Assembly (NCBI GenBank): GCA_022571635.1
Contig: JACZXL010000002.1
Coordinates: 1-38,364, forward strand
Length of the DNA stretch: 38,364 nt
Direction: 5' to 3'
Origin: Planctomycetota bacterium
GTDB taxonomy: Bacteria; Planctomycetota; Phycisphaerae; Phycisphaerales; SM1A02
Positions within the stretch are counted from its first letter, which is position 1; every line of letters begins with the position of its first letter. Made by a program: the position numbers and the translations under genes. Below the pieces are notes generated by a model. It worked only from the letters and a program-made list of their open reading frames with translations, was not told where the DNA came from and did not search any database. Shown one piece after another: positions 14,242 through 36,736 of the stretch.

Positions 14242-16470
14242 TCAGCCGGTCATATCGACGCGGACGAGCTGACGCTCGTCAAAAGCGTCCCGCCCCTCCG
14301 TCACCGTGATCCACGAGTCGAGCGGAACGTTCTCGAACACCTGGCGGGTGTTGGAGGTCGGCCACCATATCTCGAGCGACTCGATCGCGGTGGCGTCGCC
14401 GAGGCCGATCTCCTGGCGAGCCGGTGAGCCGCCGAAGCTGCTGACGGAGCCGACGGCGCGGTGGATTCGGCGAGGCCCGTCCGGCGTTTTGACGCGGACG
14501 TCGATGCGCGCGCCATAACCGGCGCGGTTCGTCTTCGTCCCGACAAGCGAAAGGTAGAGGTAGCGATGGCCGTGGCCGGGGTTCAGGAACAGGGCGTTAT
14601 GGAAATGGTCGCCGGGGTAGAAGCCGCCAAGCTGGTGGTAGATGTCCTGGTCGCCGTCGTTGTCGATGTCGGCGAACGCGACGCCGTGCCCCTTTTGGAG
14701 ATGTCCGAAACCGCCCGAGGTCGTCACGTTCTCAAAGCGCCGTCCGCCGTCGTTACGGAGCATGACGTTGGGCATGAGCGTCTCGTAGTTCGGATCACCG
14801 GTCGAGAGGTAGATATCGAGGAAGCCGTCGTTGTCCAGATCGCCGAAGTTCGCGCCCATGGGCAGCCACGCGTGATCAAGACCGACCTCCTCGGTGACAT
14901 CGACGAACGTGCCGTTGCCCCGGTTGCGATAGAGGGCTGGCGGGTGCGCTCGGAATGGCTGGCCGAGGTGATCCGCGGCCACGGCGGCGATCGAGGCGTC
15001 GGTGGTCGGCGAATAGTCATAGGAGGCCACGAACAGGTCGAGCCATCCGTCGTTGTCGTAGTCGAAGAACCATGTCGCGAAGCTCCAGCGGGGCCCGACG
15101 ACGCCGGCCAAGGCGGCGACATTGACGAAAGTTCCGTCACCGTTGTTTCGGTAAAGGCGGTTGGCGCCGAAGTTCGAGACGAAGATGTCGAGGTCGCCAT
15201 CGTTGTCGTAGTCGCCGACGGTGACCCCCTTCGCGTAGCGGTCGTTGGTGACCCCCGCGGCGACGGCAACATCGACGAACCGCCCGTCGCCTTCGTTCCG
15301 AAAGAGTTGTGAGGGGAAGTCGCCGCCGGAGGGGTCGAAGGGCCGCGACTCGTTCCCGACGTAAAGATCCAGATCACCATCACCGTCGAAGTCGCCCCAC
15401 GCGGCGGTCTGCGTCGGTGCCGCCGGCGTTGCGAGGCCCGCCTGACGGGTCACATCGGTGAAGGTGCCGTCGTCCTCCCGACGCAGCAGCGAGTTTCGGA
15501 TGCGCCCGTCATCGAGGAGCCACGCCCCGCGCAGGACGAGCACGTCGATGTCGCCATCTCCGTCGTAGTCGCCGCCGATGCAGTTCAGCCCGCCGAGTTG
15601 TTCGGTCGCCCTCGACGCCGCGGAACGGTCCTCAAAACCTCCGGCCCCGTCGTTGCGGTAGTACGTGAGCGGACCCTCCGGGTCGTAGGTCGATGTCACG
15701 ATGTCCAGGAAGCCGTCGCCGTCGAAGTCATCGACAATGACGCCGCCGCAGGCGTTGAAGGTGTCGATCCCGAGCCTTCCCGCCACCTCAGGGAAGCGGC
15801 CGATGTCTCGGTCGGAGGCAAACGCCAGCGGCGGGATGACGAGCCCCTCGGGCACCCCGTCCGGATAGATGCCCTCGGCCATCGCGGCGATGTTGAGCAG
15901 CCATCGCGCGCCGAGATCCTGCGGGAATCGCTCAAGGTAGGCCTCGTAGTCGCGACGCGCCTGCGCGGCCGGAGCCTTCTCCACGTGCACTCCGCCGCCC
16001 TGGAGAGGGAAGATGCAGCCCTCCGGGTTCCGGCGCGCGATGCAGTTCCTCACTTCGGCCTTGCGGAGGTAGGCGAGAGCGCGGTTGCGCAGGACGGCGG
16101 GGTACCGGTCGAGCGCGTCCTCCGCCTGGCACATGGCGACCGCCTCGTTGGCCAGGGTGACGGCTTCGTCGACGAGACCGAGCCGGAGAAGCTCGAGGAT
16201 CAGCGCGGCGCGGAGCCCGAGACGCCGCTTCAGCGACGCTTCCGGCGACCACTCGATCCGCTGGCGCAGCTCCTCGACTTTTCCCTCACCGAGATACTCG
16301 TTGGATCCCTCGCGCAGCTTGCGGGCAATGGCCTCAAACTCCGGTCGCTGGTTGGTCGGAGGCCCGTCGACGTCGGATCGCGGGGGCGGAACCGGCGCCT
16401 GAGCAGCCGCGGGAAGGGGCATGCCGGCGATGCCGATCAGCGGGACAAGCGTCGCAAGCATCCGCATCAT
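14242..16470 (-). CDS. CRTAC1-family protein: helical/TPR-like N-terminus, VCBS/FG-GAP propeller, ASPIC/UnbV domain
   Basis: The 742-residue protein begins with a signal peptide (about 1-24). Residues about 35-210 are helical and TPR-like (EAVTLANEAVAMC, AVLRNRALAYLRKAEV, ARRDYEAYLERFP). From about 230 to 640 are repeated VCBS/FG-GAP blades with the Ca2+-binding pattern D-DGDGDLD (for example DYDGDGDIDVLV, DFDGDGDLDLYV). The last 100 residues are an ASPIC/UnbV domain (GYGARIDVRV, QEIGLGDA, WWPTSNTRQVF). These proteins are extracellular and probably bind partners or carbohydrate; no enzymatic role is established. ATG 16470 is chosen over GTG 16473. It follows the CRTAC1 gene at 16540-18237 by 69 bases on the same strand. 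Confidence 0.92.
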   Translation of the reverse strand: MMRMLATLVPLIGIAGMPLPAAAQAPVPPPRSDVDGPPTNQRPEFEAIARKLREGSNEYLGEGKVEELRQRIEWSPEASLKRRLGLRAALILELLRLGLVDEAVTLANEAVAMCQAEDALDRYPAVLRNRALAYLRKAEVRNCIARRNPEGCIFPLQGGGVHVEKAPAAQARRDYEAYLERFPQDLGARWLLNIAAMAEGIYPDGVPEGLVIPPLAFASDRDIGRFPEVAGRLGIDTFNACGGVIVDDFDGDGFLDIVTSTYDPEGPLTYYRNDGAGGFEDRSAASRATEQLGGLNCIGGDYDGDGDIDVLVLRGAWLLDDGRIRNSLLRREDDGTFTDVTRQAGLATPAAPTQTAAWGDFDGDGDLDLYVGNESRPFDPSGGDFPSQLFRNEGDGRFVDVAVAAGVTNDRYAKGVTVGDYDNDGDLDIFVSNFGANRLYRNNGDGTFVNVAALAGVVGPRWSFATWFFDYDNDGWLDLFVASYDYSPTTDASIAAVAADHLGQPFRAHPPALYRNRGNGTFVDVTEEVGLDHAWLPMGANFGDLDNDGFLDIYLSTGDPNYETLMPNVMLRNDGGRRFENVTTSGGFGHLQKGHGVAFADIDNDGDQDIYHQLGGFYPGDHFHNALFLNPGHGHRYLYLSLVGTKTNRAGYGARIDVRVKTPDGPRRIHRAVGSVSSFGGSPARQEIGLGDATAIESLEIWWPTSNTRQVFENVPLDSWITVTEGRDAFDERQLVRVDMTG

Positions 16471-16539
16471 CACGAGCGAGTATAGGAACGCGCTGAAGCA
16501 CGATCCGCGATGCCGTCGGGCCGAATGTCGGGCCCGGCC

Positions 16540-18237
16540 TCATCGTGTCTCCGCCGGCGATGACCTGCTCTCGGCGGCATCTTGGAGTTCGTCGCCCTCG
16601 CCCCGGCGGAGGGTGTGAACCGCATCCGCAGGGAGGCCGCCGAAGCTTTCGCGCACACCGCCCACCCAGCGCACGACAACGTCCGTCACGCCGCCGGCCT
16701 CACCGAGCCCGACGTGGACCCGGGGATCGTTGGCCGCAAGATAGCTGTAGGCTGTGCGTACACCCCGAATGACCGATCGGTCACCGACGACCATGGTGAT
16801 GGTAGCGCCGATGGCGTCGCTGCCCCGCTCGTCGAGCACGCGGAACATGATCCAGTGTCCGCCCCGGCCCGCGCGATTGTGCAGCAGGTAGGGGGCCCCG
16901 TCGCGGTTGACGACGAGCACGTCCACGGCCCCGTCGTTGTCGATGTCGCCGAAAGCCGCCGCCCGACTCACGTCGATGAGCGTCTGGGCCGTCCCGCCGC
17001 GGGGCGTGACCTCCTCGAATCGCCCCTCCGCCGTGCCCCGAAAGAGCAGGTTGGGCTCGGCCATATCGATAATCGTCACCCGGCCATTGGCTTCGTACAG
17101 GTCGAGCCATCCATCGTTGTCGAAGTCGATCCACCCCAGGCCGAAACGCGTGAAGACCCGGCTCGTGACGGCCAGCCCCGCGTCGGCGGTGGCGTCGATG
17201 AACGCGCCGTCGCTATTACGGTAAAGCGAGTCCGATTCCGTCCGCCGGTTGCAGACCAGCAGGTCGAGGTCGCCGTCTGAGTCGTAATCGGCGGCGACGA
17301 CGCCCATGCCCGCCTTGGGGACGCCATTCTCGTCAACGGCACAGCCCAGCAGCACGCCCTGATCGGTGAAACGTCCGGCGCCGTCGTTGACCCACAGCCG
17401 GTCCATCATCCCGTCGTTGGCCACAAACACGTCGATGAAGCCATCGTTGGTGAAGTCGCCCGCGATCACGCCGAGCCCGGTACCCATCCCGTCGGCGATC
17501 CCCGTCACCTCGGAAACGTCGGTGAACGTCCCGTCGCCATTGTTCATATACAGCGTGTCGGCCGTGGGTGCGTTGTACGCCTCGGGGGGGCAGTAGTCCA
17601 GCTGCGCGATGCTCAGGTTGTAACATTCAAGCTCGGTGACGACGGACCAGTTGATGTAGTTCGTGACGAAGAGATCCAGGTCGCCGTCTGCATCGTAATC
17701 CAGGAACGCCGCACTGGCGCTCCAGCGGGATTCACCAACACTCGCCCTGTCCGTGACATCGGTGAAGTGCCCGTCACCGTCGTTGCGAAGCAGAACATTG
17801 GGACCGAGGTTGGTCACGTACAGGTCGAGGTCGCCGTCCCCGTCGTAGTCGCCGGTGGCGACACCCATGCCATAGCCGCGATCGGCGGATCCGCTGCCGG
17901 CAGTGACGTCGGTGAATGTTCCGTCGCCGTTGTTACGGAACAGTTGGTTGGGCGGTCGCTCCTCGGCGGGCCCCTCAGCCGGTCCGCCCTGGACGAAGTA
18001 TGCGTCCAAGTCGCCGTCGCCGTCCATATCGAAGAGCGCAACGCCGCCGCAGACGTTCTCCGGCATCAGAAACTGCACGCCGTGCCCGGACTCGTGGACA
18101 AAGTTCAGACCGGCGGCCGCCGCCTGCTCCTGAAACCAACCAACGGGCGTTTGCGGCGCGGCAGCGGGCGTGCCCGTCTCTCGATTGCAGGCAAGAAGGG
18201 TCAGACAGAAGCACAGCGCGCCGCGGAGTCGGGTCAC
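16540..18237 (-). CDS. CRTAC1-family lipoprotein (VCBS/FG-GAP propeller with ASPIC/UnbV domain)
   Basis: About 565 residues. A GTG start at 18237 gives a lipoprotein signal ending LTLLAC (Cys17). Residues about 45-450 contain successive VCBS/FG-GAP blades (DMDGDGDLDAYFV, DYDGDGDLDLYVTN, DYDADGDLDLFVTN and others). The ASPIC/UnbV domain follows (SDAIGATITMVV, SYLAANDPRVHVGLG, VVRWVGGVRESF). The GTG overlaps the TGA of the TPR gene (GTGA), so the two are translationally coupled. It is closely similar to the plus-strand protein at 21476-23236, sharing NYINWSV versus NYIVWSV segments and the D-CPPEAY versus DYCSPTAY segment. Location should be the outer face of a membrane. The function is unknown. 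Confidence 0.93.
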   Translation of the reverse strand: MTRLRGALCFCLTLLACNRETGTPAAAPQTPVGWFQEQAAAAGLNFVHESGHGVQFLMPENVCGGVALFDMDGDGDLDAYFVQGGPAEGPAEERPPNQLFRNNGDGTFTDVTAGSGSADRGYGMGVATGDYDGDGDLDLYVTNLGPNVLLRNDGDGHFTDVTDRASVGESRWSASAAFLDYDADGDLDLFVTNYINWSVVTELECYNLSIAQLDYCPPEAYNAPTADTLYMNNGDGTFTDVSEVTGIADGMGTGLGVIAGDFTNDGFIDVFVANDGMMDRLWVNDGAGRFTDQGVLLGCAVDENGVPKAGMGVVAADYDSDGDLDLLVCNRRTESDSLYRNSDGAFIDATADAGLAVTSRVFTRFGLGWIDFDNDGWLDLYEANGRVTIIDMAEPNLLFRGTAEGRFEEVTPRGGTAQTLIDVSRAAAFGDIDNDGAVDVLVVNRDGAPYLLHNRAGRGGHWIMFRVLDERGSDAIGATITMVVGDRSVIRGVRTAYSYLAANDPRVHVGLGEAGGVTDVVVRWVGGVRESFGGLPADAVHTLRRGEGDELQDAAESRSSPAETR

Positions 18238-19760
18238 GGCGCCCTCTTTCGCATCCCCAGCCGACGTAGCGCCGCCCGGGTCTGCGGGTCGCTGGGCGCC
18301 AATTCGAGAGCCCGCATCAACGCCGAGTCCGCGTCCTGGAGCCGATCCAGGTTCAAGTAGGCGATCCCGAGCTGACGGAACACCCTCGCCTCGCTCGGTG
18401 ACCGTTTCGTGATCACCTCCAAGTCGCCGGCCGCCACATCCCATCGCTCTAGCCGCATCTCGGTGAGCGCTGCCGCGTAGCGATACTGCACGACCGCGGG
18501 TTCACACCGCGCCGCCTCGTGGTAAGCCGCAGCGGCGTCGGCGAGCGCCCCTTGGCGAAGAAGCAGCTTTCCGCGCAGCGCGTGGGCGACGGCATAGGTC
18601 GAGTTCAGCTCAAGCGCCCGGTCGAGGTGCGCCAGTGCCTCTTCCGCTCGATCCTCCATCGCCGCCAGGGTTCGAGCCATCTCAAGATGCACCGAGTAGT
18701 ACGTCGGACGCTGAGATAACGCATCGGTCAGCACCGCCGCACTCTTGTCGAGCCGTCCGGCATTGCGGTAGGAAATCGCCATGGCTTTCAGCAGACCTAC
18801 CTCATCCGGCCGCTGTTCCCACAGCTCGTCGAGCAGGGCCGCGGCGTCATCGGGGCGGTGGCGCGCGAGCAGCCGGTTGGCTTCGGCGAGCGTCGGAAAG
18901 ACGAACATTCGAGACTGCTCCACCTCCCGACGCCAGGGTTCTTGGAGGTCGAGCCCCGCACCGACACCGCCCACGAAGGCCGCCGCGGCGTCCTCGTGGC
19001 GTCCCAGCCCGCGGTAGGCGCGGCCCAACAACTGGCGTGCATACCGGGCGTTGTTCTCGTCGCTAAACGCGATGGGCTCCAGTAACTCGACTGCGCGGTC
19101 CCACTGTTGGCGCCGCAGACTCACCCTGGCCAGGCCGATCCGGCCGACGGTGTCTTGCTCATCGATCGCCGCCGCTTGCTGGAACGCGGCTTCGGCGGCC
19201 TCGAGGTCGCCCAGCTCCAGTTGCCACAAGCCGACGCGGAAGTGGGCAGGGATAAGGTCTTCGTGCAGACTTCTCACGTGATCCATCGCCTCGCACGCCC
19301 CCTCCAGATCACCCAGCTCGCCGCGGACGCAGGCCAGCCCGTACCAACAGCGCGCCGCCGACTCATCGAGTTGGACCGCACGTTCGTAGACCTGTTCCGC
19401 CAACTCGTAGAGATGATGGGCGTCGTAGAGCACCGCCAGCTCGCGCCAGGCGGCCGCATCGTCTGGGCTTGCGTTCGCCTTGACCAACATGCGCCGGATC
19501 GTCGCGGCCATCCGGGGGCGGAAGTCGTCGAGATTGGGCGGGAGTAGGGGCTTCGGCGCTTTGACCACGAGATCGGTGAACGGAGTGTCCTGGGGCGGTT
19601 CGCGACGGCCAGCCCACCACCACGCGGCGCCGATCGACACCACGGCCGCCGCGGCGAGCGCTGCTCCGAACAACGCTCGTGGCGAGATCACACCCAATCG
19701 ACATCGACCGCGGAGGGCGTCAAGCGGATAGGGAAACGTGGAACGATAACTGCGCTGCAT
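18234..19760 (-). CDS. Membrane-anchored TPR protein
   Basis: The 508-residue protein has a short basic N-terminus, one membrane span at about 29-50 and then a long array of TPR units (for example YELAEQVYERAVQLDES, EAAEAAFQQAAAIDEQD, ADAAAAYHEAARCEPA, DADSALMRALELAPSD). TPR arrays are protein-protein scaffolds; here the array should face the periplasm side, where the coupled CRTAC1 lipoprotein also resides. The start at 19760 has AGAGG close upstream. It is the first gene of the minus-strand TPR-CRTAC1-CRTAC1 operon and diverges from a paralogous TPR gene across 209 bases. Confidence 0.92.
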   Translation of the reverse strand: MQRSYRSTFPYPLDALRGRCRLGVISPRALFGAALAAAAVVSIGAAWWWAGRREPPQDTPFTDLVVKAPKPLLPPNLDDFRPRMAATIRRMLVKANASPDDAAAWRELAVLYDAHHLYELAEQVYERAVQLDESAARCWYGLACVRGELGDLEGACEAMDHVRSLHEDLIPAHFRVGLWQLELGDLEAAEAAFQQAAAIDEQDTVGRIGLARVSLRRQQWDRAVELLEPIAFSDENNARYARQLLGRAYRGLGRHEDAAAAFVGGVGAGLDLQEPWRREVEQSRMFVFPTLAEANRLLARHRPDDAAALLDELWEQRPDEVGLLKAMAISYRNAGRLDKSAAVLTDALSQRPTYYSVHLEMARTLAAMEDRAEEALAHLDRALELNSTYAVAHALRGKLLLRQGALADAAAAYHEAARCEPAVVQYRYAAALTEMRLERWDVAAGDLEVITKRSPSEARVFRQLGIAYLNLDRLQDADSALMRALELAPSDPQTRAALRRLGMRKRAP

Positions 19761-19801
19761 ATGCCTCTTGCCTCCGGCCCGCCAGCAAACCGGTTCGAGA
19801 C

Positions 19802-19807
19802 ATTCTA
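19802..19807 (-). promoter_or_regulatory. Possible -10 element (TAGAAT) for the minus-strand TPR-CRTAC1 operon
   Basis: On the minus strand TAGAAT lies about 40 bases ahead of the start at 19760, in a G TAGAAT G context. The same GTAGAATG octamer occurs on the minus strand at 28871-28878 ahead of the sulfatase-like gene starting at 28820. No good -35 hexamer is seen, so the call is weak. Confidence 0.25.
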
Positions 19808-19842
19808 CGCCACGTCGAAGGGGCTTGGGCTGCTCCTGACTC

Positions 19843-19871
19843 TTGTAAACAAGGCGAGCAGTTCTTACGAT
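19843..19871 (+). promoter_or_regulatory. Promoter for the plus-strand TPR-CRTAC1 operon, with overlapping 12-bp palindrome
   Basis: TTGTAA (19843-19848), a 17-base spacer and TACGAT (19866-19871) make a good sigma-70-type promoter, predicting a start of transcription near 19878. A near-perfect palindrome CTTGTAAACAAG (19842-19853) covers the -35 element and could be an operator for a dimeric regulator. Confidence 0.5.
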
Positions 19872-19969
19872 GGAGTTGGGCTCGGGATGCCAATCGAGTC
19901 CTCGAATCTCCGCTCGTCTCTGTTCAGGGCGTGCGTGACATGGCCGCCGGCAAAATGGAGAATGCGCAG

Positions 19970-21466
19970 ATGACGTCGCGGGGCGGCGATGACGGCGGGG
20001 TGAGTGAGAACCAGGTCGCCCAACCCGCGGCCCGGGCGCATCGCTTCCGGGCCCGCCACGCAGCGGCCGCTGTCATCGGTCTTGCGATCGTCGGCCTCGT
20101 CACGCTGGGGATCTGGCGGCGGGACGGGCCGGCGCCGGTGTTGCCCGAGGAATTGGAGCGCCTCGATCCGGAGTTGGTTTCGATGATCGAGGATCTTGCT
20201 GCCGCCGTGCAGGCGAATCCTCAAGATCCAAATGCCCACGGCCGATTGGGGCTCGTCTATGAAGCCAACGGACTGTTCGACGAGGCGCGACGATGCTATG
20301 AGACCGTTGGGCAGCTGGCGGACAGCACACCGTGGTGGAGCTACCACCTGGCGATCGCGACGCGTCAGGCCGGGGATTTTGACGGCGCAATGCAGTTGCT
20401 GCGCTCGCTGGCCAGGAAGCATCCGAAGTTCGCTGCCCTCCACCATCGGCTGGGCGCGGCGCTGCTGGAAGCCGGCCACCTCGACGAGGCGGCAATTGCG
20501 TTTCAGCGCGCCCGTGGCTTGGCTCCATCAGCACCGGCGCCCATGGTCGGCTTGGCAGACGTCAAGCTGCGCCAGCGCGACCACGCTGGCGCCGCATCCC
20601 TGCTTCAGCGGGCGATCGAGATCGATCCCAACTACAAGGCGGCGCACTATTCACTGGGGCTCGCCTACCGCGGCCTGGGCCGGTCACAGGAGGCGGCGCG
20701 GGAGCTCGCGCGGGGACTCAATGCGCCGCCGCGATTCATGCCGGACCCACTTGCCAAACAGCTGCGGCAATACATGGTTTACCCTGCCGGGCGGGCCGAA
20801 CGCGCCGTGGAGCTGGCTGCGGCCGGGCAAACGGCCGAAGCGGCCGCGCTGCTCGAGAAAGGACTCGTCACCCGACCTCAAGACATCGGGATGATCAACG
20901 AGCTGTCGAAGATCTACGTTCAAATGAATCAATACGACAAGGCGCTGGAGCTGTTATCGCGCGCGAAGCGCGTCAATGAGCACGATTTCCGGACGTTCAT
21001 CAGTCTCGCACGCTGCTTTCTGGCGATGGGTCGTCACGCTGAGGCCCTGACCCACGCGGACCGCGCGGCGGACCTGGCGCCGACGAACGTGCGCACGCAT
21101 CTCAGCCGGGCGAGCGTATTGCGTGCCATGGGGCGGCATGACGAAGCGCTGCCGGCGCTCGAGGCGGCCGTTCAACTCGAGCCGCGCTCCGCCGAGCTTC
21201 ATGTTCGCCTCGCCCAGACCTGCCTCCGACTAGGGCGCGATGGCCAGGCCGAAGCGCACGCTCGGACGGCAATTGACCTGTCTCCGGAGTCGTTCCAAGC
21301 CCACGTCACGCTGTTTGCCGCCTCCATCAGGCAGGGACACCTGCAGGAGGCGGCTTCGACGCTATCGGTCGCTCGCCGGCTCGCGCCTGACGATCGGCGA
21401 ATCACCGCTATGCAACGTCGGTTGGCCGAGCGGCGGGCGAGCGAGCAGACGCCGGAGGAAGGCTAG
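19970..21466 (+). CDS. Membrane-anchored TPR protein (paralogue of the divergent TPR gene)
   Basis: About 498 residues: a polar basic N-terminus, one membrane span (about 31-49) and many TPR units to the end (DEARRCYETVGQLADS, DEAAIAFQRARGLAPS, AGAASLLQRAIEIDPN, DEALPALEAAVQLEPR). In-frame ATGs at 19940, 19955 and 19970 are all possible; 19970 is preferred because GGAG lies nine bases before it. The architecture matches the divergent TPR protein at 18234-19760, including a VVKA/PVLPEEL-type linker after the span, then a TPR array. Its stop is nine bases before the CRTAC1 gene, so they form one operon. The role is inferred to be scaffolding. Confidence 0.9.
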   Translation: MTSRGGDDGGVSENQVAQPAARAHRFRARHAAAAVIGLAIVGLVTLGIWRRDGPAPVLPEELERLDPELVSMIEDLAAAVQANPQDPNAHGRLGLVYEANGLFDEARRCYETVGQLADSTPWWSYHLAIATRQAGDFDGAMQLLRSLARKHPKFAALHHRLGAALLEAGHLDEAAIAFQRARGLAPSAPAPMVGLADVKLRQRDHAGAASLLQRAIEIDPNYKAAHYSLGLAYRGLGRSQEAARELARGLNAPPRFMPDPLAKQLRQYMVYPAGRAERAVELAAAGQTAEAAALLEKGLVTRPQDIGMINELSKIYVQMNQYDKALELLSRAKRVNEHDFRTFISLARCFLAMGRHAEALTHADRAADLAPTNVRTHLSRASVLRAMGRHDEALPALEAAVQLEPRSAELHVRLAQTCLRLGRDGQAEAHARTAIDLSPESFQAHVTLFAASIRQGHLQEAASTLSVARRLAPDDRRITAMQRRLAERRASEQTPEEG

Positions 21467-21475
21467 CATCCACGC

Positions 21476-23236
21476 GTGAATCGAGACGACACCGAAATGA
21501 CGATGCCGCAGCGCTTTGGCGGGCGAGGTTGGACGGTCGGCGTCGTGGTTGTCGGCGCGGCCGCGTTTGTCGCGGCCGGCGCATGGTGGTGGCTCGGCCG
21601 GGACGATCCGAACGCGGTGGAGCGCATGACTGCGGGCGACGCGACGACGGCGTGGTTTGAGGACGTGACGGATCGCTCCGGCATTGACTTCACCTACATG
21701 CGCGGGCTGGAGACGAACTACTGGTTGCCGGAGATCATGGGTGGCGGCGCGGCGTGGTTGGATTACGATGGCGATGGCGATCTCGATCTCTACCTGGTCC
21801 AAGGCGGGCAGATCGATGGCGACGCGGCAACCGTCCCCGGCAACCGCCTCTATCGCAACCATGGAGACGGCACGTTCGAGGATGTGACGGATGCGGCTGG
21901 CGTCGGAGACCGGCAATACGGCATGGGTTGTGCGTGCGGTGACTATGACAATGACGGCGACATCGATCTGTACGTGACCAACGTGGGGCCCAACGTCCTT
22001 TACCGCAACGACGGCGACGGAACCTTCACCGACGTGACGTTGGAGGCAGGGGTTGGGGATCCGGGATGGGGGACCAGCTCCGCCTTCGTGGATTACGACG
22101 CCGACGGTGACCTGGATCTGTTCGTCGTCAACTACATTGTGTGGTCCGTGGATCGTGAACAGAAGTGCTTCGCGCACGTTCAGGACTACTGCTCACCAAC
22201 CGCCTACGACGCCCCAGCGCCCGACACGTTGTACCGCAACGAAGGCGACGGCACCTTCGTCGATGTGAGCGAGTCGGTCGGTCTCAGAGCAGCGTTTGGA
22301 AACGGGCTGGGCATCGCCTGCGGTGACTTCAATCTGGACGGACACGTCGATATCTTCGTGGCGAATGACAAGACGGTCAACCAGCTATGGATCAACACCG
22401 GCGACGGGCAATTCAGGGACGAGGCGCTTATCGCCGGGTGCGCCGCCAACATGCACGGGGTGGCGGAGGCGGGCATGGGCGTAGCCGCGGTCGACGTGGA
22501 AGGCGATGGGGATCTGGATCTGTTCATGACGCACCTGCGCGACGAGTCGAACACCATGTACCTGAATCAGGGAGGTATGTTCGAAGACATAACGCCGACG
22601 ACGGGATTGTCAGCGCCGAGCATTCCCTTCACGGGCTTCGGCATGGGATTCGCGGATTTCGATCATGATGGCCGGCTCGATCTGTATGTGGCCAATGGGC
22701 GAGTGGGAAGGTATAAGCCGCTGTGGAGTCAGACGGACCCCTACGGCGAGCCGAACCAGTTGTTCCGCGGGGTCGGGGCCGGACTGTTCGAGGACGTCGC
22801 GCCGCGCGGCGGCGTCCTCCACGAACCGATCGGAGCCAGCAGAGCTGCGGCGTTCGGCGACTATGACAACGATGGCGACATCGACGTCGTTATCGTCAAT
22901 AGCGGCGCCAAAGTCCAGCTCCTGCGCAACGTGGCGGGCGGACGGGGCAACTGGATCATGTTTCGCCTGCTCGACAGGCGCCAGCGTGACGCGCATGGCG
23001 CCATGATCCGGATCGAAGCGGGCGGCGCGGTCCGATGGCGTTTGGCCGCTCCGACCTACAGCTACTGCGCCAGCAACGACCCGAGAGTCCACTTCGGTCT
23101 GGGAGACTCGTCGGTGGTCGATGAGGTCAGGGTCCGATGGCCGAGCGGTCGCATCGAGTCGTTCGGGTCAATGCCGGCAGGGAGGCTCCACGAACTGCGG
23201 GAGGGCTACGGACGTGCCGCGGCGATGGGCGGCTGA
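21476..23236 (+). CDS. Membrane-anchored CRTAC1-family protein (VCBS/FG-GAP propeller with ASPIC/UnbV domain)
   Basis: The 586-residue protein starts at GTG 21476 (ATG 21497 is an alternative). It has an N-terminal span at about 19-40 instead of the lipobox used by its minus-strand paralogue. Propeller blades with the D-D-DGD-D pattern occupy about 60-470 (DYDGDGDLDLYLV, DYDNDGDIDLYVTN, DYDADGDLDLFVVN). The ASPIC/UnbV domain closes the protein (SYCASNDPRVHFGLG, VRVRWPSGRIESF). It follows the TPR gene by nine bases. The next gene converges on it from the opposite strand with a 21-base gap, in which I see no terminator hairpin with a T-tract. Confidence 0.92.
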   Translation: MNRDDTEMTMPQRFGGRGWTVGVVVVGAAAFVAAGAWWWLGRDDPNAVERMTAGDATTAWFEDVTDRSGIDFTYMRGLETNYWLPEIMGGGAAWLDYDGDGDLDLYLVQGGQIDGDAATVPGNRLYRNHGDGTFEDVTDAAGVGDRQYGMGCACGDYDNDGDIDLYVTNVGPNVLYRNDGDGTFTDVTLEAGVGDPGWGTSSAFVDYDADGDLDLFVVNYIVWSVDREQKCFAHVQDYCSPTAYDAPAPDTLYRNEGDGTFVDVSESVGLRAAFGNGLGIACGDFNLDGHVDIFVANDKTVNQLWINTGDGQFRDEALIAGCAANMHGVAEAGMGVAAVDVEGDGDLDLFMTHLRDESNTMYLNQGGMFEDITPTTGLSAPSIPFTGFGMGFADFDHDGRLDLYVANGRVGRYKPLWSQTDPYGEPNQLFRGVGAGLFEDVAPRGGVLHEPIGASRAAAFGDYDNDGDIDVVIVNSGAKVQLLRNVAGGRGNWIMFRLLDRRQRDAHGAMIRIEAGGAVRWRLAAPTYSYCASNDPRVHFGLGDSSVVDEVRVRWPSGRIESFGSMPAGRLHELREGYGRAAAMGG

Positions 23237-28820: not shown

Positions 28821-28939
28821 CGGCGTGGTCTCCTTGTCAAAAACGAAGCGCGTAAGTGCAGCCTGATTCACATTCTACAACACACACCGGGGCCGTGCCG
28901 GACAAAGCGCGCTCCACATCGGATCGAATCGGCCGCTCA

Positions 28940-29164: not shown

Positions 29165-29932
29165 CTACTTCCGGCGGCGGCGAGACAGGGTCACCAGACC
29201 GCTCAGTCCCAGCAGGGCGATGACCGACGGTCCGGGAATCTTGAAGCCCGAGACCGTCACCGCGATGTTGCCTAACGGGTCACCCCCTAAGGGGAGGTTA
29301 ACTATGTAGAAGAAACCTCCGTCTAGATTAGAATAAAGGAGCGTATCGTGGCTGAAGCCGGTGTTCGGTGTACCACCGGTGAGCCAGAAGGTGCGCCCCG
29401 CGTTACCGGGACTCTCGTCCAATGTGATCCACACGGCATGCCCCGCCTGAATGCTCAGACCGGTTATCGACACGGTAAAGGCGCCGGTCCCGGCAAGAGA
29501 TGGGATGTTGATGATGCTCAGCACCGGAAGGGGGGCGATGGTGCCTGCCTTGTGCGACCCGCTCGCCGGATCCATCTCGTAGATTACTACGGTGTGCGTG
29601 ACGGTGAACTGGCCCTTGCCCTGGTTGAGGTAGGCGTAATTCAGTGCCGTGATGACCCAGCCCGCCGTATCATTGTCTTTGAAGTGGATGTCGTCGCCCC
29701 ACGCATAGTCCGGAGCGGTCCAGTCCCAGTTGCTTTGCGTGGCTGTGTTGCCGGTAACTTTGTTCTCGTAGATGACCTGGGAGCCGGCCAGGGCGCCGCC
29801 ATTGGGACTTCCGAGACCTCCGAATTGGGGGTTGAATGGAGTGTTCGTGACGCCGGCACCTGCCACGGTGACCACCATCGCCGAAGCCAGTGAGGCAACG
29901 GTCGCGATCGTTGCTTTTCTTCGTTTTCTCAT
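29165..29932 (-). CDS. Secreted surface protein with PEP-CTERM-like sorting tail
   Basis: About 255 residues. ATG 29932 gives a strongly basic n-region (MRKRRK) and signal peptide to about residue 27; GGAAGGAG lies about a dozen bases upstream. The body is beta-rich and Thr/Gly-rich with no recognised catalytic motif (DIHFKDNDTAGWVI, TVVIYEMDPASGSH). The last 24 residues form the tripartite tail: PGPS, a hydrophobic stretch ALLGLSGLVTL and RRRRK. This is the planctomycete variant of the PEP-CTERM exosortase-recognised signal. The protein is probably cleaved and attached to the surface or a matrix. No exosortase gene is in the window. It is flanked by its own terminator and a long upstream spacer, so it is likely monocistronic. 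Confidence 0.88.
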   Translation of the reverse strand: MRKRRKATIATVASLASAMVVTVAGAGVTNTPFNPQFGGLGSPNGGALAGSQVIYENKVTGNTATQSNWDWTAPDYAWGDDIHFKDNDTAGWVITALNYAYLNQGKGQFTVTHTVVIYEMDPASGSHKAGTIAPLPVLSIINIPSLAGTGAFTVSITGLSIQAGHAVWITLDESPGNAGRTFWLTGGTPNTGFSHDTLLYSNLDGGFFYIVNLPLGGDPLGNIAVTVSGFKIPGPSVIALLGLSGLVTLSRRRRK

Positions 29933-30661: not shown

Positions 30662-31495
30662 TCAAAACTGCACGCGGAGGAATGGGCGGACGACCAGGGC
30701 GGCGAGCATGGAGGCGATGATGAAGGTCGCCCACCAGGGAATGTCCAGGCCGAGGATCGGCGTGGAACGCGAGGGGTAGTGGATCTGGATCGCCCGGACC
30801 GGGTCGCCGTCGCCAAACCCCCGCTCGGCCGGGTACAGCAGACGATCCCACCATGCGGTCCCAGGTCGCCGGGGACTGACTTTGACCAGGTGGTTCGCGT
30901 CCTCGGCACAGACGATCGATTTCTGGACATCGGTCCCCCCCACGAACCAGTGCAGATTGTCGTCGACGGGGACGGTAGCGCTGATGCGCCAGGTGACGGT
31001 GTGGTCGCGGGCGTCTCGAAGACCGGGGGTCTCCGTGCGCACGCCGCTCGGTCCGTGCAGCGCGACATTGCGATTCGTCGCCCACGCCGGCTCGACCAGA
31101 TCGAGCACTACGACGGCCGACTCATGCACGGTGATCGGCTGCTTCTCGAAGCGGGTCGCGAGCTGGGCCAGGATAAATGCGAAGGGGATGATCATCACCA
31201 GCATAGGGGGCAGCGAGTACCACAGCCGTGCCCCGATGCCCTTGAGCACCTCCCGCTGACAACTCAGGGCGACACGGAAGTCGTCCTTGAACAGGCGCAT
31301 GCACATGAGCTGCGCCCGCGTCCGTTTCACCACGCGGCGCAGCGCCGCCTGCTTCGACGTCTTGCGGAAGACGAGCGTCATGAGCACCCCGCACACGATC
31401 GAGACGACAAGAAGCACCGCCCACGGCGGCAGGAACGACAGCAACCGGAAGATGAAGTCGCCGACGGCGGTGCAGACGGCGTTGGCCGTATTCAT
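30662..31495 (-). CDS. Three-span membrane protein of unknown function, EMC3/DUF106-like in layout
   Basis: The 277-residue protein has spans at about 18-43, 93-113 and 254-272. Between the first two is a strongly basic, helical, probably cytoplasmic loop (FRKTSKQAALRRVVKRTR) that ends in KGIGARLWYSLPPMLVMIIP. Residues 115-250 form a soluble extracytoplasmic domain. A first span, then a basic coiled-coil-prone loop, then a Pro-rich second span is the layout of the Oxa1-superfamily members EMC3, TMCO1 and DUF106. That resemblance is my inference from topology, not a proven match. ATG 31495 follows the small RHH-like gene by 28 bases, so it is the last gene of the operon starting at 36020. Confidence 0.85.
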   Translation of the reverse strand: MNTANAVCTAVGDFIFRLLSFLPPWAVLLVVSIVCGVLMTLVFRKTSKQAALRRVVKRTRAQLMCMRLFKDDFRVALSCQREVLKGIGARLWYSLPPMLVMIIPFAFILAQLATRFEKQPITVHESAVVVLDLVEPAWATNRNVALHGPSGVRTETPGLRDARDHTVTWRISATVPVDDNLHWFVGGTDVQKSIVCAEDANHLVKVSPRRPGTAWWDRLLYPAERGFGDGDPVRAIQIHYPSRSTPILGLDIPWWATFIIASMLAALVVRPFLRVQF

Positions 31496-31523: not shown

Positions 31524-31709
31524 TCACTCGATGTACCCCAGTCCGCGGAGCTGCTTCTGAACCTCTTCGTCCGTGGCCGCGTCCTGGACGTCACTGGTGG
31601 CGCGCTCCAGAAGATGGGTGATGAACTCCTCCGTTGAGGCGTAGCCCGCGCGCTCCGCGACCAGCTTCAGCCGTTCGTACAACGCTTTATCGATCTTGAT
31701 CTTGGCCAT
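31524..31709 (-). CDS. 61-residue ribbon-helix-helix-like small protein
   Basis: The protein starts MAKIKIDKALYERLKLVAE. It has one predicted strand (KIKID), a helix (ALYERLKLVAERAGY), a turn and a second helix (TEEFITHLLERA), as in CopG/Arc-type ribbon-helix-helix proteins. The acidic tail ends EEVQKQLRGLGYIE. That tail resembles the 'L--LGYL' segment in the two sulfatase-like proteins of this window (ARLQSLGYLG and RQLAALGYLG). No toxin gene is beside it, so a toxin-antitoxin role is not supported. It sits between an alkaline-phosphatase-superfamily gene (58 bases before) and the membrane protein gene (28 bases after), and could regulate the operon or bind the enzymes. The ribosome site is weak. 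Confidence 0.75.
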   Translation of the reverse strand: MAKIKIDKALYERLKLVAERAGYASTEEFITHLLERATSDVQDAATDEEVQKQLRGLGYIE

Positions 31710-31767: not shown

Positions 31768-33813
31768 TCACGGTGAGAGCAGGTTTCGGCCAGTCATCCG
31801 GTCCGGGGCGTCGATGCCGAACAGGGCCAGGATCGTCGGGGCCAGGTCGGAAAGAGTGGGATCGTCCATGGTGATCTTGCGGTTGGTGAGGAGGATGCCG
31901 GGCACGATGGAGGCGTCGATGCAATGGTCCCCGCTCCAACGATCGAAGTTGTCTTGGAACAGCTCTTGGGGCATGCCACCCTCCGCCGTAGCCCAACTGG
32001 CCCGGTAGGTGTCCGCGTAGCCGATCAGCAGGTCCGGCGCAATCGAGGGGTCGGCTTGGGGATAGGCATCCTCCACGATGAGGATGCTGTCGATCACGCG
32101 CGTGCCGTCAGCGTCGCGCACCTGAGTCAGCTCCGCGGCGAGGCGCTTCAGAAGGGCGCGCCGATCCTCGCCCGGCTGCACCATGCCGTTCTTCTCCCGC
32201 CCAGCCATGTTGAGGTACAGGGCGTTGAGGCCGAGTGCGTAGGCCTGTGTTGCCGACCAGTCGACGCCGGAAAGGTAAATCGACTGCGCCTGGCGATCGG
32301 GGTCGGTCAGCGTCAGGTAGCCGTTGGTCAGCAGCCACGTGTTGAGGTTGAAGCCACGGCGAAAGCTGGTGAAGCCGTGATCCGACATGACGATGAGCGT
32401 GTCGTCGTCGTCGAGGGCGGCGATCGCCTCACCGACCAGGCCGTCCATTTCGACGTAGGCGTCCTCGATGACGGTTCCATACTTCGCGGCCTCCGCGGGG
32501 TCGTGAGCGGGGTGTTGGGCGTCACGATCCCGCCAGAAGATGTGTGAGAGCTGGTCGATGTGCCCGAAGTAGAAAAACAGGCACCCGCGGTCGAACTGCT
32601 GGAGGGCGTAACGGTATTGGCGGAAGCGCTCCTCCACCAGCACGCGGACCTGTGAGATGAACTCGTCCTCGTTCAGCGCGCCGGACCGCAACGCCTTGGT
32701 GTCCTCGGGAATACCGGTCGTGTAATAAAGGCCGCAGGACTGCGCCACCTGCTCGGGGAAATCGGTAGGCGTGCCCACCGGGTTGATCTGCCGCGTGGGA
32801 TCGATGTTCAGCGGGGTGACGTACAGTTCCAGCCCAGGGTGCACCTGCTTGAGGTAGAAGCGCACTATCGCCGGCATCGAAGTGGGAAGCTGCATGGCCT
32901 CGAGGGCGAGCGAGCCGGGGATGCCCGTCTCGAAGTCGATCTGCACCCAGTCGCTCCACTCGCCTTCGTTGAGCAGAACCACCTCGTCGCCGATGGTGAT
33001 CTTGGCGACGGATTCGACCGGATCGCGGGCGATGTCGAAGTCGATTTTCAGCTCCTCGACGGCGCCTCGATCGTTGGGCGTGCGCAGGTAGTTGCCGGGA
33101 CCTTTCAATATGGCGGTGGCATGGTGATCGCGGAGACGCAGGCGCACGAAGCGGCCCCCGCCCACGAGGCGCCCACCGAACGGCGCGGTCGGCGTGAAGA
33201 ACGTGAACTCGCCGTAGGAGCCCATCAGATCGGGCGTGCCCATACCGCACATGCAAAGGAAGCGCCCGCTGCCGGCTGACTCCGGCGGCGGATAGTTGGC
33301 GGGCATGCGGTAGATGGTGCAATCGACGCCGTGAACCAGCAGGTCGTCCCAGAAGGCGCTGCCCTGACGAAGCAACCTGGTTTTCTCGCCGAACAGGGGG
33401 ACGCGCCATTTGCCGGCCGAAAGCGCCCAATCGCGCGAGGGCGGCTCGACCGTGGACGTGGAAAGGAAGGGCAGAATAGCCCCGCGATCGGGGGCCGGAT
33501 CGCGGTGAATGAAGTCGTACAGCTGATGCACGCCCGGGTCGGCGCCGCTGATGAAGTTGGACCACGCCACCGGGCTTTGGGGGGGCATGCTCGTACCCAA
33601 GGGGTGCAAGCTGCCGGAGGCGGCCAGCCGGGCGAAGTTGGGCATGCGGCCGCGCTCCATCAGCTCATCCAGAATCTTGGGGTCCATACCGTCGATGCCC
33701 AGGATCAGCACACGTTGCGAGGCAGTCGGATCGTTGTCTGATCGCCCACAGGACGGCAGGCTCGCAACGACAGCCCCAACGAGCACGAGCAGGACGCCAC
33801 TGCGACGTGTCAT
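31768..33813 (-). CDS. Alkaline phosphatase-superfamily (type I phosphodiesterase/NPP-like) lipoprotein
   Basis: The 681-residue protein has a lipoprotein signal with Cys22 (SLPSC). The catalytic domain carries LILGIDGMDP (metal Asp41), PPQSPVAWSNFISG with Ser80 at the nucleophile position, FGHIDQLSHIFW, IVMSDHGFTSF (metal Asp-His) and WSGDHCIDASIVPG (metal His). This set defines the phosphodiesterase/nucleotide pyrophosphatase branch of the superfamily. A long beta-rich insert (about 130-330) may select the substrate. Its ATG overlaps the TGA of the upstream paralogue (ATGA). It probably hydrolyses or transfers a phosphate diester or monoester at the cell surface. The substrate is unknown. 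Confidence 0.92.
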   Translation of the reverse strand: MTRRSGVLLVLVGAVVASLPSCGRSDNDPTASQRVLILGIDGMDPKILDELMERGRMPNFARLAASGSLHPLGTSMPPQSPVAWSNFISGADPGVHQLYDFIHRDPAPDRGAILPFLSTSTVEPPSRDWALSAGKWRVPLFGEKTRLLRQGSAFWDDLLVHGVDCTIYRMPANYPPPESAGSGRFLCMCGMGTPDLMGSYGEFTFFTPTAPFGGRLVGGGRFVRLRLRDHHATAILKGPGNYLRTPNDRGAVEELKIDFDIARDPVESVAKITIGDEVVLLNEGEWSDWVQIDFETGIPGSLALEAMQLPTSMPAIVRFYLKQVHPGLELYVTPLNIDPTRQINPVGTPTDFPEQVAQSCGLYYTTGIPEDTKALRSGALNEDEFISQVRVLVEERFRQYRYALQQFDRGCLFFYFGHIDQLSHIFWRDRDAQHPAHDPAEAAKYGTVIEDAYVEMDGLVGEAIAALDDDDTLIVMSDHGFTSFRRGFNLNTWLLTNGYLTLTDPDRQAQSIYLSGVDWSATQAYALGLNALYLNMAGREKNGMVQPGEDRRALLKRLAAELTQVRDADGTRVIDSILIVEDAYPQADPSIAPDLLIGYADTYRASWATAEGGMPQELFQDNFDRWSGDHCIDASIVPGILLTNRKITMDDPTLSDLAPTILALFGIDAPDRMTGRNLLSP

Positions 33814-36020
33814 GGCGACTCCGCGCACAGGAGCGACTTTCCTTCTATATAGGACGGTTTGGGGACGCCGAACAGATCGAGCACCGTGGGGGCGAGATCG
33901 ACGATGTTCGCGCCGCCGTTCGCCCCATTGAGTTTGTCGCTGCAAAACAGGACACCGGGGACCAGCGACGGATGGATGCAGTGATCGCCGCTCCACGCCT
34001 TACGGTTGTCGCTGAAGATCGCCTTTCCGCACTTGCCGATGACGGCATCCCAAGAGACCCGGTATCCGACGTTGTATCCGACGATGATTTCCGGGGCGGT
34101 CTCGACGTAGGGACCGGTGTAGACGGTCTCGCGGGGCATGGCCTCGTGAATGGCCACCTCGCCGAGCTCTGGATCGCGCAGGCCGGTGAGCTTGTCGCTG
34201 ATCTCACGGGCCAGCGGCCCCGCCTCCTCGGCCGGCACGATGCCCTGCGCCTTGTGGCCGACGCGGTTGAGGAAGATGCCGGCGAGTCCCACGGCGAACG
34301 CGCGGGTGCGGCTCCAGTCGATATCGCGCAGATACGCGCCGCTCGGGCGGTCGGCGCCCTCCTTCAGCGCCAGATAGCCATTCTCCGCCAGCCACGCGTT
34401 CAGATCCACGCCGCGCCGAAACGACTTGAAGCCGTGGTCCGACATCACAAACAGCACGGTGTCGCTGTCCAGCGACTCGACCGTTCGTCCCACGAGCTTG
34501 TCCATGCGGATGTACATGTCGCGGATGACGTCGCGGTGCGTGTCGCGATCCCCATTGCCCAGCGCCGGATGCTTATCGTCGATGAAGCGCCAGAACATGT
34601 GTTGGATGCGGTCGGGGCCGTCGAAGACGCACACGACGAGGCCTCGGCGAACCCGGCGCAGCGCATCGAAGAACATCCGCGTGCGCTCATCGTGGATGTT
34701 GTACGCCTGCTCCAGGAAGGCGTCCTCGTTCAGGCGATCCTCCGAAAGCGACCACGTATCCTCCGCCAGCCCAAGCGTCGCGTACGTTCCGTCCAGTCGC
34801 GCCAGGTAGGACGCGTAATTGCGAGGGTGCGAGATCGGCATCACCGGCTTCTCGGGGTCGAGCTGGATCGGCGTGCAGTACATCTCAAACGGCGCGTCGA
34901 ATCGCTTGAGGAAGAACCGGCACACGCCGTGGACCTTCACAAGTCCGCCGAGCACCTTGAATTGAACCGGCACCCATTCGCTGTGCTTATTGAGCACCAG
35001 ACGGATGCGCTGACCACTGACGCGGAGCGTGGCGGACCCGTCCCCGTTGGCGGCAACCTTGAAGCGGACGCGCAGGTCAGGGCGATCCGCGTGCAGCGTG
35101 TTCACCGGCCCGCGGAGGAAGCCTTCGACAGTGCCGTTGCGCCGCGTGACCCGAATGACATCGCCGCCCACCTCTCCTTCGCCCGCCACGCTTGCCTCGG
35201 ACTCATCGTCGTGCCCGTTTTTGGTTGCGCCGTTCTCGGTGAAGTAGGAGAACATGCCGTGCGTACCCCGCAGGTCGGGCACGCACATGGCCGAGAGCTG
35301 CACGCCGCGGAACTTATCGGGCGGGAAGGTGATCGGCACGCGCAGCACCGCGCTGAAGACGCCCGCCTCGCCCAGAACCGTCCAGAACGGCTTGCTGCGC
35401 CGCAAACCCTCAATCCGGGGCTTCGAAAGCGGGATGACCGCCTTGCCCAAACGCAGCGTACGACGGCTCTCACCGATGCGGACCGAGGACTGGGTCGGCT
35501 GATACGTGCGGTTGCAAGCGATGAAGTCGAAGATGTTGTGCTTGCCGGGATTGGTGCCCGTGGAGAACGACGACCACGCCACCGGCGACAGCGGCGGAGT
35601 GGTCGTGCCCAACCGCGTATAGCTGCCAGTCTCGCGCAGCCGGGAGAGGTTCGGCAGCAGTCCCTCGTCCATGAACTGCTCGGTGAGGCTCGGCTCCAGA
35701 CCGTCCAGACCCAGCACAACGACCCGCTTGGTCTTGGCCCGGCGGTACGCCCGGCCGCCGCGGAGCGCGCGCCACAGCATGCGGATGGGCCATGTGATGA
35801 GAAAGAGGAGGGAGGAGAGAACAGCGGAGAACACCGCGAAGAAAGACCCCAGCAACGCGATGCCGGCCCCGGGCCCGATGTAGGCGTACTGCTCGGACGA
35901 GGAGACCTCGCCCGGCCACAGCAACATCGCCGCCGCCAGCAGCAACCAAGGCGCTCGCGCCGCGTGGCGCCGCGCGCCGGCACGCAAGTCGCTCCCGATG
36001 TTGGCTTTGCCGCTCCCCAT
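33810..36020 (-). CDS. Alkaline phosphatase-superfamily (type I phosphodiesterase/NPP-like) membrane protein
   Basis: The 736-residue protein has an N-terminal signal or first span (about 24-40), the motif AYIGPGAG, a second span (about 56-85) and a basic stretch before the catalytic domain. Key motifs are VVLGLDGLEP (metal Asp106), PPLSPVAWSSFSTG (Ser145 as nucleophile), DGPDRIQHMFWRF, FVMSDHGFKSF and WSGDHCIHPSLVPG. It is a clear paralogue of the following gene, with which it overlaps by four bases, but it is anchored by two spans instead of lipid. It heads the operon of AP-like, AP-like, RHH-like and membrane-protein genes. No good ribosome site was seen at 36020. Confidence 0.92.
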   Translation of the reverse strand: MGSGKANIGSDLRAGARRHAARAPWLLLAAAMLLWPGEVSSSEQYAYIGPGAGIALLGSFFAVFSAVLSSLLFLITWPIRMLWRALRGGRAYRRAKTKRVVVLGLDGLEPSLTEQFMDEGLLPNLSRLRETGSYTRLGTTTPPLSPVAWSSFSTGTNPGKHNIFDFIACNRTYQPTQSSVRIGESRRTLRLGKAVIPLSKPRIEGLRRSKPFWTVLGEAGVFSAVLRVPITFPPDKFRGVQLSAMCVPDLRGTHGMFSYFTENGATKNGHDDESEASVAGEGEVGGDVIRVTRRNGTVEGFLRGPVNTLHADRPDLRVRFKVAANGDGSATLRVSGQRIRLVLNKHSEWVPVQFKVLGGLVKVHGVCRFFLKRFDAPFEMYCTPIQLDPEKPVMPISHPRNYASYLARLDGTYATLGLAEDTWSLSEDRLNEDAFLEQAYNIHDERTRMFFDALRRVRRGLVVCVFDGPDRIQHMFWRFIDDKHPALGNGDRDTHRDVIRDMYIRMDKLVGRTVESLDSDTVLFVMSDHGFKSFRRGVDLNAWLAENGYLALKEGADRPSGAYLRDIDWSRTRAFAVGLAGIFLNRVGHKAQGIVPAEEAGPLAREISDKLTGLRDPELGEVAIHEAMPRETVYTGPYVETAPEIIVGYNVGYRVSWDAVIGKCGKAIFSDNRKAWSGDHCIHPSLVPGVLFCSDKLNGANGGANIVDLAPTVLDLFGVPKPSYIEGKSLLCAESP

Positions 36021-36143: not shown

Positions 36144-36157
36144 GTCGATGCCTTTGC

Positions 36158-36736
36158 CTACTTCCGCTGCCTGTACAACGACGGATCAACCACGGCCAGC
36201 ATCGCCTCACGATCAAGGCTCACCCCAAGGAACCCGATAACCACGTCCACCACGGGGGCGGGATCCGCGACGAGCGCGTTGTAGTCGACCATGTGTACTT
36301 GGATGTCAGGCTGTTGCGCCATCCAGCCCTGCACCTTGTCGAGCTGCTGTTGGTACGCCCTGACCAACTGCTCGGTGGTGAGATTGGCCCCGGTCGTTCC
36401 GCGCCGCTCGAGCATCACCGCCTGTGATCGGACGACCTCCGCGAGATTCCGCTGCATGAAGATGATGCGGTACGCTCGGTCCCCAGGCAGGTCGTACAGC
36501 AGCGCGTGAATGACCTTGACGGCATGCCCCGGCGCTTCATCCAGCCAGGACTGATCTCGCTTTGTGCGCTTGACCGCCTCCAGCTCGTAGTAGCCGCGCG
36601 GGTTGTCGTCATCATGCGCACGAATGTGATCCGTCAGCGGCGGAATGCCGCCCGCCTCGAGCATCTGCATCATCAGCGAGGTGCCGGAGCGAGGCAGACC
36701 CGAGACAATCGTAATAGCGGCGGTGTCGTACGGCAT
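36158..36736 (-). CDS. Sulfotransferase-family protein, cytosolic and short
   Basis: The 192-residue protein opens with the PAPS 5'-phosphosulfate loop ITIVSGLPRSGTS (9-20). The 3'-phosphate-binding region follows (RNLAEVVRSQAVML, from about 96, with Ser104). Arg60 to Trp64 (RDQSW) and a KVIHALL segment match sulfotransferase-fold strands. There is no signal peptide. ATG 36736 is chosen because the motif should lie near the N-terminus; a longer frame to 36928 adds a low-complexity Arg/Cys-rich stretch that looks spurious. It would transfer sulfate from PAPS to an unidentified acceptor, possibly a sugar or polymer precursor. It lies 137 bases upstream of the phosphatase-like operon on the same strand. 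Confidence 0.88.
   Translation of the reverse strand: MPYDTAAITIVSGLPRSGTSLMMQMLEAGGIPPLTDHIRAHDDDNPRGYYELEAVKRTKRDQSWLDEAPGHAVKVIHALLYDLPGDRAYRIIFMQRNLAEVVRSQAVMLERRGTTGANLTTEQLVRAYQQQLDKVQGWMAQQPDIQVHMVDYNALVADPAPVVDVVIGFLGVSLDREAMLAVVDPSLYRQRK

Follow-up and report, generated by a model that had tools for sequence, protein, structure and literature searches.

The stretch of DNA analysed here (the window) is contig JACZXL010000002.1, with a length of 38,364 nucleotides, and it makes up an entire contig of a planctomycete (Phycisphaerae-type) metagenome-assembled genome of 3.5 Mb that is 85% complete. Its right-hand part carries an operon of four genes, encoding two proteins of the NPP family (NPP-B and NPP-A), a small ribbon-helix-helix-like (RHH-like) protein and a three-span membrane protein (TM3). 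We refer to this operon as the cassette. Together with a sulfotransferase gene upstream and Thr-type sulfatase-like genes (STPR2 and STPR1) downstream, it makes up what we call module 2 (~23.3-36.7 kb), with the following genes:

36158..36736, minus strand: sulfotransferase, immediately upstream of NPP-B (Sulfotransfer_3, 58.1 bits vs a cut-off of 27)
33810..36020, minus strand: NPP-B, AP-superfamily phosphodiesterase/pyrophosphatase (PF01663, 112.8 bits vs a cut-off of 23)
31768..33813, minus strand: NPP-A, paralogous NPP, predicted periplasmic, with a lipoprotein signal ending SLPSC (PF01663, 95.2 bits)
31524..31709 (also given as 31524-31724), minus strand: RHH-like small protein of 61-66 aa with a C-terminal LRGLGYIE tail
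30662..31495, minus strand: TM3, putative EMC3/TMCO1/DUF106-like three-span membrane protein with an Ig/filamin-like domain inserted between the second and third transmembrane spans (TM2 and TM3 of the protein)
26328..28871, minus strand: STPR2, membrane-anchored AP-superfamily 'sulfatase' fold with a Thr nucleophile (TLPSH), an LGY motif and TPR
23258..26335, minus strand: STPR1, lipoprotein with a Thr-type 'sulfatase' fold, an LGY motif and TPR, overlapping STPR2 by 8 nt

The four cassette genes are a conserved operon across many bacterial phyla. When NPP-B was searched in 60 close relatives, true orthologues were found in only three (71-73% identity), each with NPP-A adjoining, and the order NPP-B, NPP-A, RHH-like protein, TM3 was kept in the contigs of all three. 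A scan of 84,980 species genomes for NPP relatives gave more than 500 stretches, of which the best 80 loci were examined (L-numbers below are labels of the loci sampled). The records of these best 80 were titled Planctomycetota, Omnitrophota, KSB1, Acidobacteriota, Nitrospirota, Gemmatimonadota, Deltaproteobacteria and others. The order of the four genes recurred in most of the 80 loci that were uncut by a contig end, order and strand were both kept in many of the 80, and a near-complete TM3 was present at 57 of the best 80. Within the class to which the window genome belongs, TM3 was matched in 64 of 298 genomes, and NPP, RHH and TM3 stood together in 38 of the 40 class loci fetched. For 40 class genomes we also compared 717 kb of cassette neighbourhood with 586 kb of other (control) regions of the same genomes, and counted 38 RHH genes in the cassette neighbourhoods vs none in the controls. 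In most loci this gene is kept between NPP-A and TM3, and in the window the start ATG of NPP-A overlaps the stop of NPP-B. Pairwise distances of NPP-B, NPP-A and TM3 correlated with r values of 0.81-0.85, which shows co-travel only, as shared descent alone would give the same. The RHH-like and three-span proteins individually had no Pfam match above the cut-off, although their conservation in order at dozens of other loci confirms that they are real; for the former, RHH_1 was matched by 22 of 66 family members (best 6e-5), with the window member at 14.7 vs a cut-off of 20.5 bits. A description of the cassette was not found in the open-licence literature searched, which leaves out most subscription journals. 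As a side observation, the cassette of L070 (JANQQE010000021.1) resembles that of the Phycisphaerae locus L069.

Genes for sulfate activation and sulfate transfer recurred beside the cassette. ATP sulfurylase (ATPS)/adenosine 5'-phosphosulfate (APS) kinase (APSK) or CysDN lay within ~10 kb of it in 11/80 cross-phylum and 4/40 class loci (15/120), and a sulfotransferase was near it in 19/80 cross-phylum loci and 1/40 class loci (20/120), vs 0/40 controls in both cases. These whole-locus counts were based on hidden Markov models, without prior selection of proteins carrying the LGY tail described below. In a Pfam census of nearest neighbours, the upstream side (n=70) gave Sulfatase 15, Sulfotransfer_3 7, heparinase-like 4, PAPS_reduct/CysD 2 and TauE 2, and the downstream side (n=72) gave Sulfotransfer_3 8, ATP-sulfurylase 4 and APS_kinase 3. 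To this census a few sulfate-activation proteins with LGY tails had been added by hand, making their counts high by up to two each. Several loci carried these genes and the cassette in one same-strand run, namely ATPS-NPP-APSK-NPP-NPPB-NPPA-RHH-TM3 in L090 (with gaps of a few bases), SULF-NPPB-NPPA-RHH-TM3-ST-ATPS/APSK in L098, and APSK-CysD-CysN-NPPB-NPPA-RHH-TM3-SULF in L119. The order NPPB-NPPA-RHH-TM3-ST-SULF in L112 was likewise operon-like, and the position of a sulfotransferase directly upstream of NPP-B was seen in L038 and L040 as well as in the window.

The association of the cassette with sulfation has a precedent in a published archaeal cluster for the synthesis of 3'-phosphoadenosine 5'-phosphosulfate (PAPS). 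In Pyrococcus yayanosii, PYCH_17520-17560 encode CopG, ATP sulfurylase, a DHH phosphatase of 3'-phosphoadenosine 5'-phosphate (pAp), a type I phosphodiesterase/NPP and APS kinase, with TauE adjoining and a sulfotransferase in other archaea (PMC8268124). What is shared with that cluster is the combination of an RHH/CopG gene and an NPP gene with ATP sulfurylase and APS kinase, and L074, L090 and L104 show a bacterial counterpart of it that is joined to the cassette. The cassette differs from the archaeal cluster in having, besides, the EMC3-like TM3, Thr-type exoenzymes and a pair of large NPPs that carry a long insertion, and no ATPS or APSK was found on the window contig. The authors of that study speculated that the archaeal NPP degrades pyrophosphate (PPi) (PMC8268124), and a housekeeping role in sulfate assimilation could be proposed on the same lines, in which the NPPs clear PPi and pAp from PAPS synthesis and no surface glycan is involved. 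The short NPPs of 430-460 aa that lie between ATPS/APSK or CysN and the cassette would fit such a role. We nevertheless regard it as quite unlikely for the cassette as a whole, given that NPP-A is predicted to be a lipoprotein located outside the cytoplasm, that the neighbours include sulfotransferases, Thr-type exoenzymes, heparinase-like and exopolysaccharide genes, and that most genomes with APS kinase have no cassette.

Both NPPs have kept the metal ligands of their family. The model of NPP-B (predicted local distance difference test, pLDDT, 89) matched NPP/ENPP folds with Z ~27 over 342-352 residues, and all NPP metal ligands were invariant in 57 homologues; those of NPP-A were invariant among its homologues too. 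The cassette NPPs thus share with the NPP/ENPP family (XacNPP, ENPP5-7) the AP fold, all six metal ligands and a PF01663 score above the cut-off. They differ from it in the nucleophile, which is Ser rather than the family's Thr in nearly all NPP-A and NPP-B sequences, and in a large inserted domain, mostly beta in NPP-B (model residues ~170-400). NPP-B further departs from the family in its tether. Its N-terminus consists of a first span or signal peptide, a YIGPGAG motif (58/60 NPP-B vs 0/60 NPP-A), a second span and a basic linker ahead of the catalytic domain, and this linker averaged 8.5 K/R and 0.3 D/E over the 29 sequences that were parsed by script, others being similar by eye. Because of the basic linker, the positive-inside rule predicts that the catalytic domain of NPP-B is cytoplasmic and membrane-tethered. 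For NPP-A, the lipoprotein (lipobox) or Tat-type N-termini of many homologues point to a periplasmic location, so that the twins probably face each other across the inner membrane, with NPP-B on the cytoplasmic and NPP-A on the periplasmic side.

Around the cassette, Thr-type sulfatase-like genes were enriched, with 15 in 10/40 class cassette loci vs none in 40 control regions. STPR1 and STPR2 have the PF00884 fold in common with type I (formylglycine) sulfatases; they differ from these in their TPR fusion and in having Thr in place of the Cys/Ser that is converted to formylglycine, with TLPSH in both where the C/S-X-P-X-R nucleophile motif would stand. In an alignment, the formylglycine position was Thr in STPR1/2 and in 50/55 cassette-linked 'sulfatases', and Cys in none. 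A Thr at this position makes phosphoryl-type chemistry likelier than desulfation, and STPR1/2 are probably not sulfatases. Thr-type AP proteins with 3-5 N-terminal spans, an LtaS-like layout, were seen in L082, L085, L092, L112 and L117, mostly with C-terminal LGY tails and some of them in tandem.

Such features raise the question of whether the products act in phospho-decoration, with NPP-B, NPP-A and the Thr-type proteins serving as phospho-alcohol transferases or hydrolases (LtaS/EptA-like) on an envelope polymer and the sulfation genes being merely frequent neighbours in glycan loci. The Ser/Thr nucleophiles and intact metal sites agree with this idea, as do the spans that precede the AP domain in several Thr-type neighbours, the sugar-polymer gene clusters at the KSB1 cassette loci, and the resemblance of the NPP-B fold to ENPP6/7, which cut choline phospholipids. 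However, in L090, L098 and L119 genes for ATP sulfurylase, APS kinase or CysDN are joined directly to the cassette in an operon-like way, which would be unexpected for phospho-decoration, and so would a cytoplasmic NPP-B, and we therefore consider this explanation unlikely.

The remaining large component, TM3, had been labelled EMC3-like in an earlier note on this DNA, and the label is supported for the fold of residues 7-118. Over these 112 residues, the family profile matched the archaeal YidC-like protein MJ0480 (5c8j) with E=8e-9, and the match extended weakly and co-linearly into the last span. The Pfam family EMC3_TMCO1 was matched by 13/57 family members (best 5.5e-5); taken singly, the window protein scored below the cut-off (11.8 vs 27.1 bits). 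Both the model (pLDDT 96.3) and the span and charge profile gave a core of three spans, with TM1 and TM2 connected by a cytoplasmic helical hairpin. An Ig/filamin-like domain (Z ~6) occupies residues 119-205 between TM2 and TM3, and whole-model fold searches returned mainly Ig-like domains; since these filled the listings, the absence of YidC/EMC3 rows proves nothing, and the EMC3-like assignment is accordingly based on the sequence profile. TM3 would thus resemble the EMC3/TMCO1/GET1/archaeal DUF106 (MJ0480) branch of the Oxa1 superfamily in its spans, hairpin and profile, and it is distinct from that branch in being bacterial, in its inserted domain of ~85 residues and in its location in a sulfation-linked operon. 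A further difference lies in charge. A conserved positive residue in a hydrophilic groove is ascribed to YidC-type insertases (PMC8920935), whereas K/R was absent (0%) from every position of the three span cores among 57 TM3 sequences, and no span core contained a charged residue. We do not call TM3 an insertase for this reason, and scaffold or assembly factor is the more cautious label.

The RHH-like protein ends in a tail of the form L..LGY[VIL]x, encoded at 31524-31552 in the window and placed one residue before the stop in 136/139 sequences. An LGY motif was also present in 44/55 Thr-type sulfatase neighbours, in 24 of them at the very C-terminus and in the fusions before the TPR, vs a background of 19/7262 other open reading frames. 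Besides the window, the shared motif was noted at loci L043-L192. APS kinase and CysD beside the cassette have similar LGY ends. APS kinase and CysD families commonly carry similar GY[IF] tails at the C-terminus, and for this reason we hesitate to read the LGY tail as a tag common to all sulfation proteins; only the Thr-type sulfatases and the RHH protein share it strongly. The tail could be a docking peptide. As the sulfatases are exported whereas the RHH protein presumably stays in the cytoplasm, the similarity could also have arisen by convergence on a helix-capping end. Among side observations, a DUF2061 membrane protein with an LGY-like end was seen at L161:1540-1890 (between CysD and CysN) and at L120:12928-13224, and a second RHH-LGY gene precedes an NPP and an APS kinase in L074 and L104.

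To the left of module 2 lies module 1 (~14.2-23.2 kb), which consists of two divergent TPR>CRTAC1 pairs and one further CRTAC1 gene. These genes and one more gene of the region, located between STPR2 and TM3, are as follows:

14242..16473, minus strand: CRTAC1-like protein with signal peptide (Pfam)
16540..18240, minus strand: CRTAC1-like lipoprotein, FG-GAP + UnbV_ASPIC (Pfam), start inferred near 18240
18234..19760, minus strand: TPR1, membrane-anchored (Pfam), coupled to the next CRTAC1 gene
19679..21466, plus strand: TPR2, membrane-anchored (Pfam)
21476..23236, plus strand: CRTAC1-like, span-anchored (Pfam), starting 9 nt after TPR2
29168..29932, minus strand: PEP-CTERM-like secreted protein with the tail IPGPSVIALLGLSGLVTLSRRRRK (PEP_CTERM, 14.6 bits vs a cut-off of 16), candidate member of the system only

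The earlier note had listed twelve genes in this 22 kb region, and all twelve were present as open reading frames at the positions it gave. Pfam matches far over the cut-off were obtained for three UnbV_ASPIC/FG-GAP proteins, two TPR proteins, two Sulfatase+TPR fusions, two Phosphodiest (NPP) proteins and one Sulfotransfer_3 protein. Its terms 'Thr-type' for the fusions and 'Ser-type' for the NPPs were accurate, and its list had overlooked a thirteenth gene, that of the PEP-CTERM-like protein. Its description of nearly all products as exported or membrane-anchored needs correction for NPP-B, the NPP twin anchored by a span, whose catalytic domain is predicted to be cytoplasmic.

The same note had read the twelve genes as a single system, in which CRTAC1, TPR, sulfatase-TPR, NPP, RHH, EMC3-like and sulfotransferase proteins would jointly remodel one surface polymer or glycoprotein, and had suggested a check of co-localisation in related genomes. 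Run on the 40 class genomes, this check did not place CRTAC1 with the cassette (0 in the 717 kb of cassette neighbourhood vs 1 in the 586 kb of controls), and CRTAC1 was rejected as a cassette partner within the class; TPR genes numbered 6 vs 3. Of the other CRTAC1 loci in the window genome, 3/4 had a same-strand TPR gene directly upstream and no cassette gene. Since CRTAC1 is absent near the cassette in the class and the same TPR>CRTAC1 arrangement stands alone elsewhere in the genome, CRTAC1 and TPR form a separate module, and the 22 kb region is at least two adjoining modules. Besides physical adjacency in the window, a single system could appeal to the cross-phylum loci, where CRTAC1 adjoined the cassette in 7/80 (L043, L055, L065, L074, L079, L101, L104) vs ~0.5 expected, the expectation being taken from the class background (~490 ASPIC matches in 298 genomes) and not from that of the phyla concerned. 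Three of the seven cases are related Omnitrophota loci. There may thus be a loose link between CRTAC1 and the cassette in some lineages, but one twelve-gene system seems very unlikely. The rest of the window holds further genes. Positions 1-11690 are a separate sugar-degradation neighbourhood with Gfo/Idh, TIM-barrel isomerase, FGE-like protein, ApbE and GH127 genes and a GH29 fused to a 3-keto-disaccharide hydrolase domain, 12493-13818, adjacent to a cytochrome c gene, encodes a fusion of a SCO1/SenC domain with a PCu(A)C copper chaperone, and 37067-38362, at the contig end, encodes a (pentapeptide-like) repeat protein with C-terminal spans.

For module 2, we favour the view that its genes are accessory to the PAPS-dependent sulfation of a glycan that is exported or belongs to the envelope, and we assign this view a rough probability of 0.58. 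It builds on observed features, namely the operon with its distribution and sulfation neighbours, the protein folds and NPP metal sites that are intact, and for the right-hand genes it retains the earlier theme of building or modifying a surface polymer, given the conserved operon, the enriched Thr-type sulfatase-like genes and the recurring sulfotransferase and sulfate-activation neighbours. Several points weigh against it. Genes for ATP sulfurylase, APS kinase or CysDN were not found on the window contig, so that the window does not itself contain a PAPS cluster and the sulfotransferase alone ties it to sulfation. The link is also uneven, as only 1/40 class loci had a sulfotransferase of the window's subfamily and 4/40 had CysDN. 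Co-occurrence at the genome level is uninformative, because APS kinase was found in 226/298 class genomes; the window genome has two APS kinase matches elsewhere, as expected of most genomes. Finally, the predicted topology of NPP-B stands on the positive-inside rule alone. Outside the archaea, a comparison can be made with the putative sulfated-glycosaminoglycan exopolymer cluster of Pontiella sulfatireligans, likewise a bacterium of the PVC superphylum with a PF13469 sulfotransferase in a glycan locus; the text of the paper describing it, which rather than the genome was the basis of the comparison, names no NPP gene (PMC7356697).

If module 2 does serve glycan sulfation, its topology, substrates, complex formation and regulation might be pictured as follows. 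Cytoplasmic sulfotransferases would use PAPS. The substrate of NPP-B, tethered in the cytoplasm, would be either a by-product (PPi, PAPS/pAp) or an intermediate linked to a nucleotide or lipid, in which the enzyme would cleave a phosphodiester or pyrophosphate bond. In the periplasm, phospho-substituents of the exported product would be acted on by NPP-A and by the Thr-type AP-superfamily proteins. TM3, as an EMC3-like membrane scaffold with a cytoplasmic hairpin and a periplasmic Ig domain, could join the two faces or aid insertion, and the operon may be repressed or tuned by the RHH protein, a role also proposed for CopG in the archaeal PAPS cluster. A bolder version, which we consider highly improbable, would see a widespread machine in which the sister NPPs on opposite faces of the inner membrane and an EMC3-like bridge move an activated sulfate- or phospho-linked intermediate across for glycan sulfation or capping outside, with parts marked or regulated via the shared C-terminal LGY tail.

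Sulfated glycans occur among bacteria; in granular sludge, for instance, it is unclear which species produce them (PMC7356697). The systems by which bacteria synthesize such glycans are poorly defined, and an operon tied to PAPS would mark sulfating bacteria and supply testable enzymes. In addition, an EMC3-like protein, mainly known from archaea and the endoplasmic reticulum, would gain a dedicated bacterial operon. Altogether, the cassette suggests an arrangement in which sister enzymes may work on opposite sides of one membrane.

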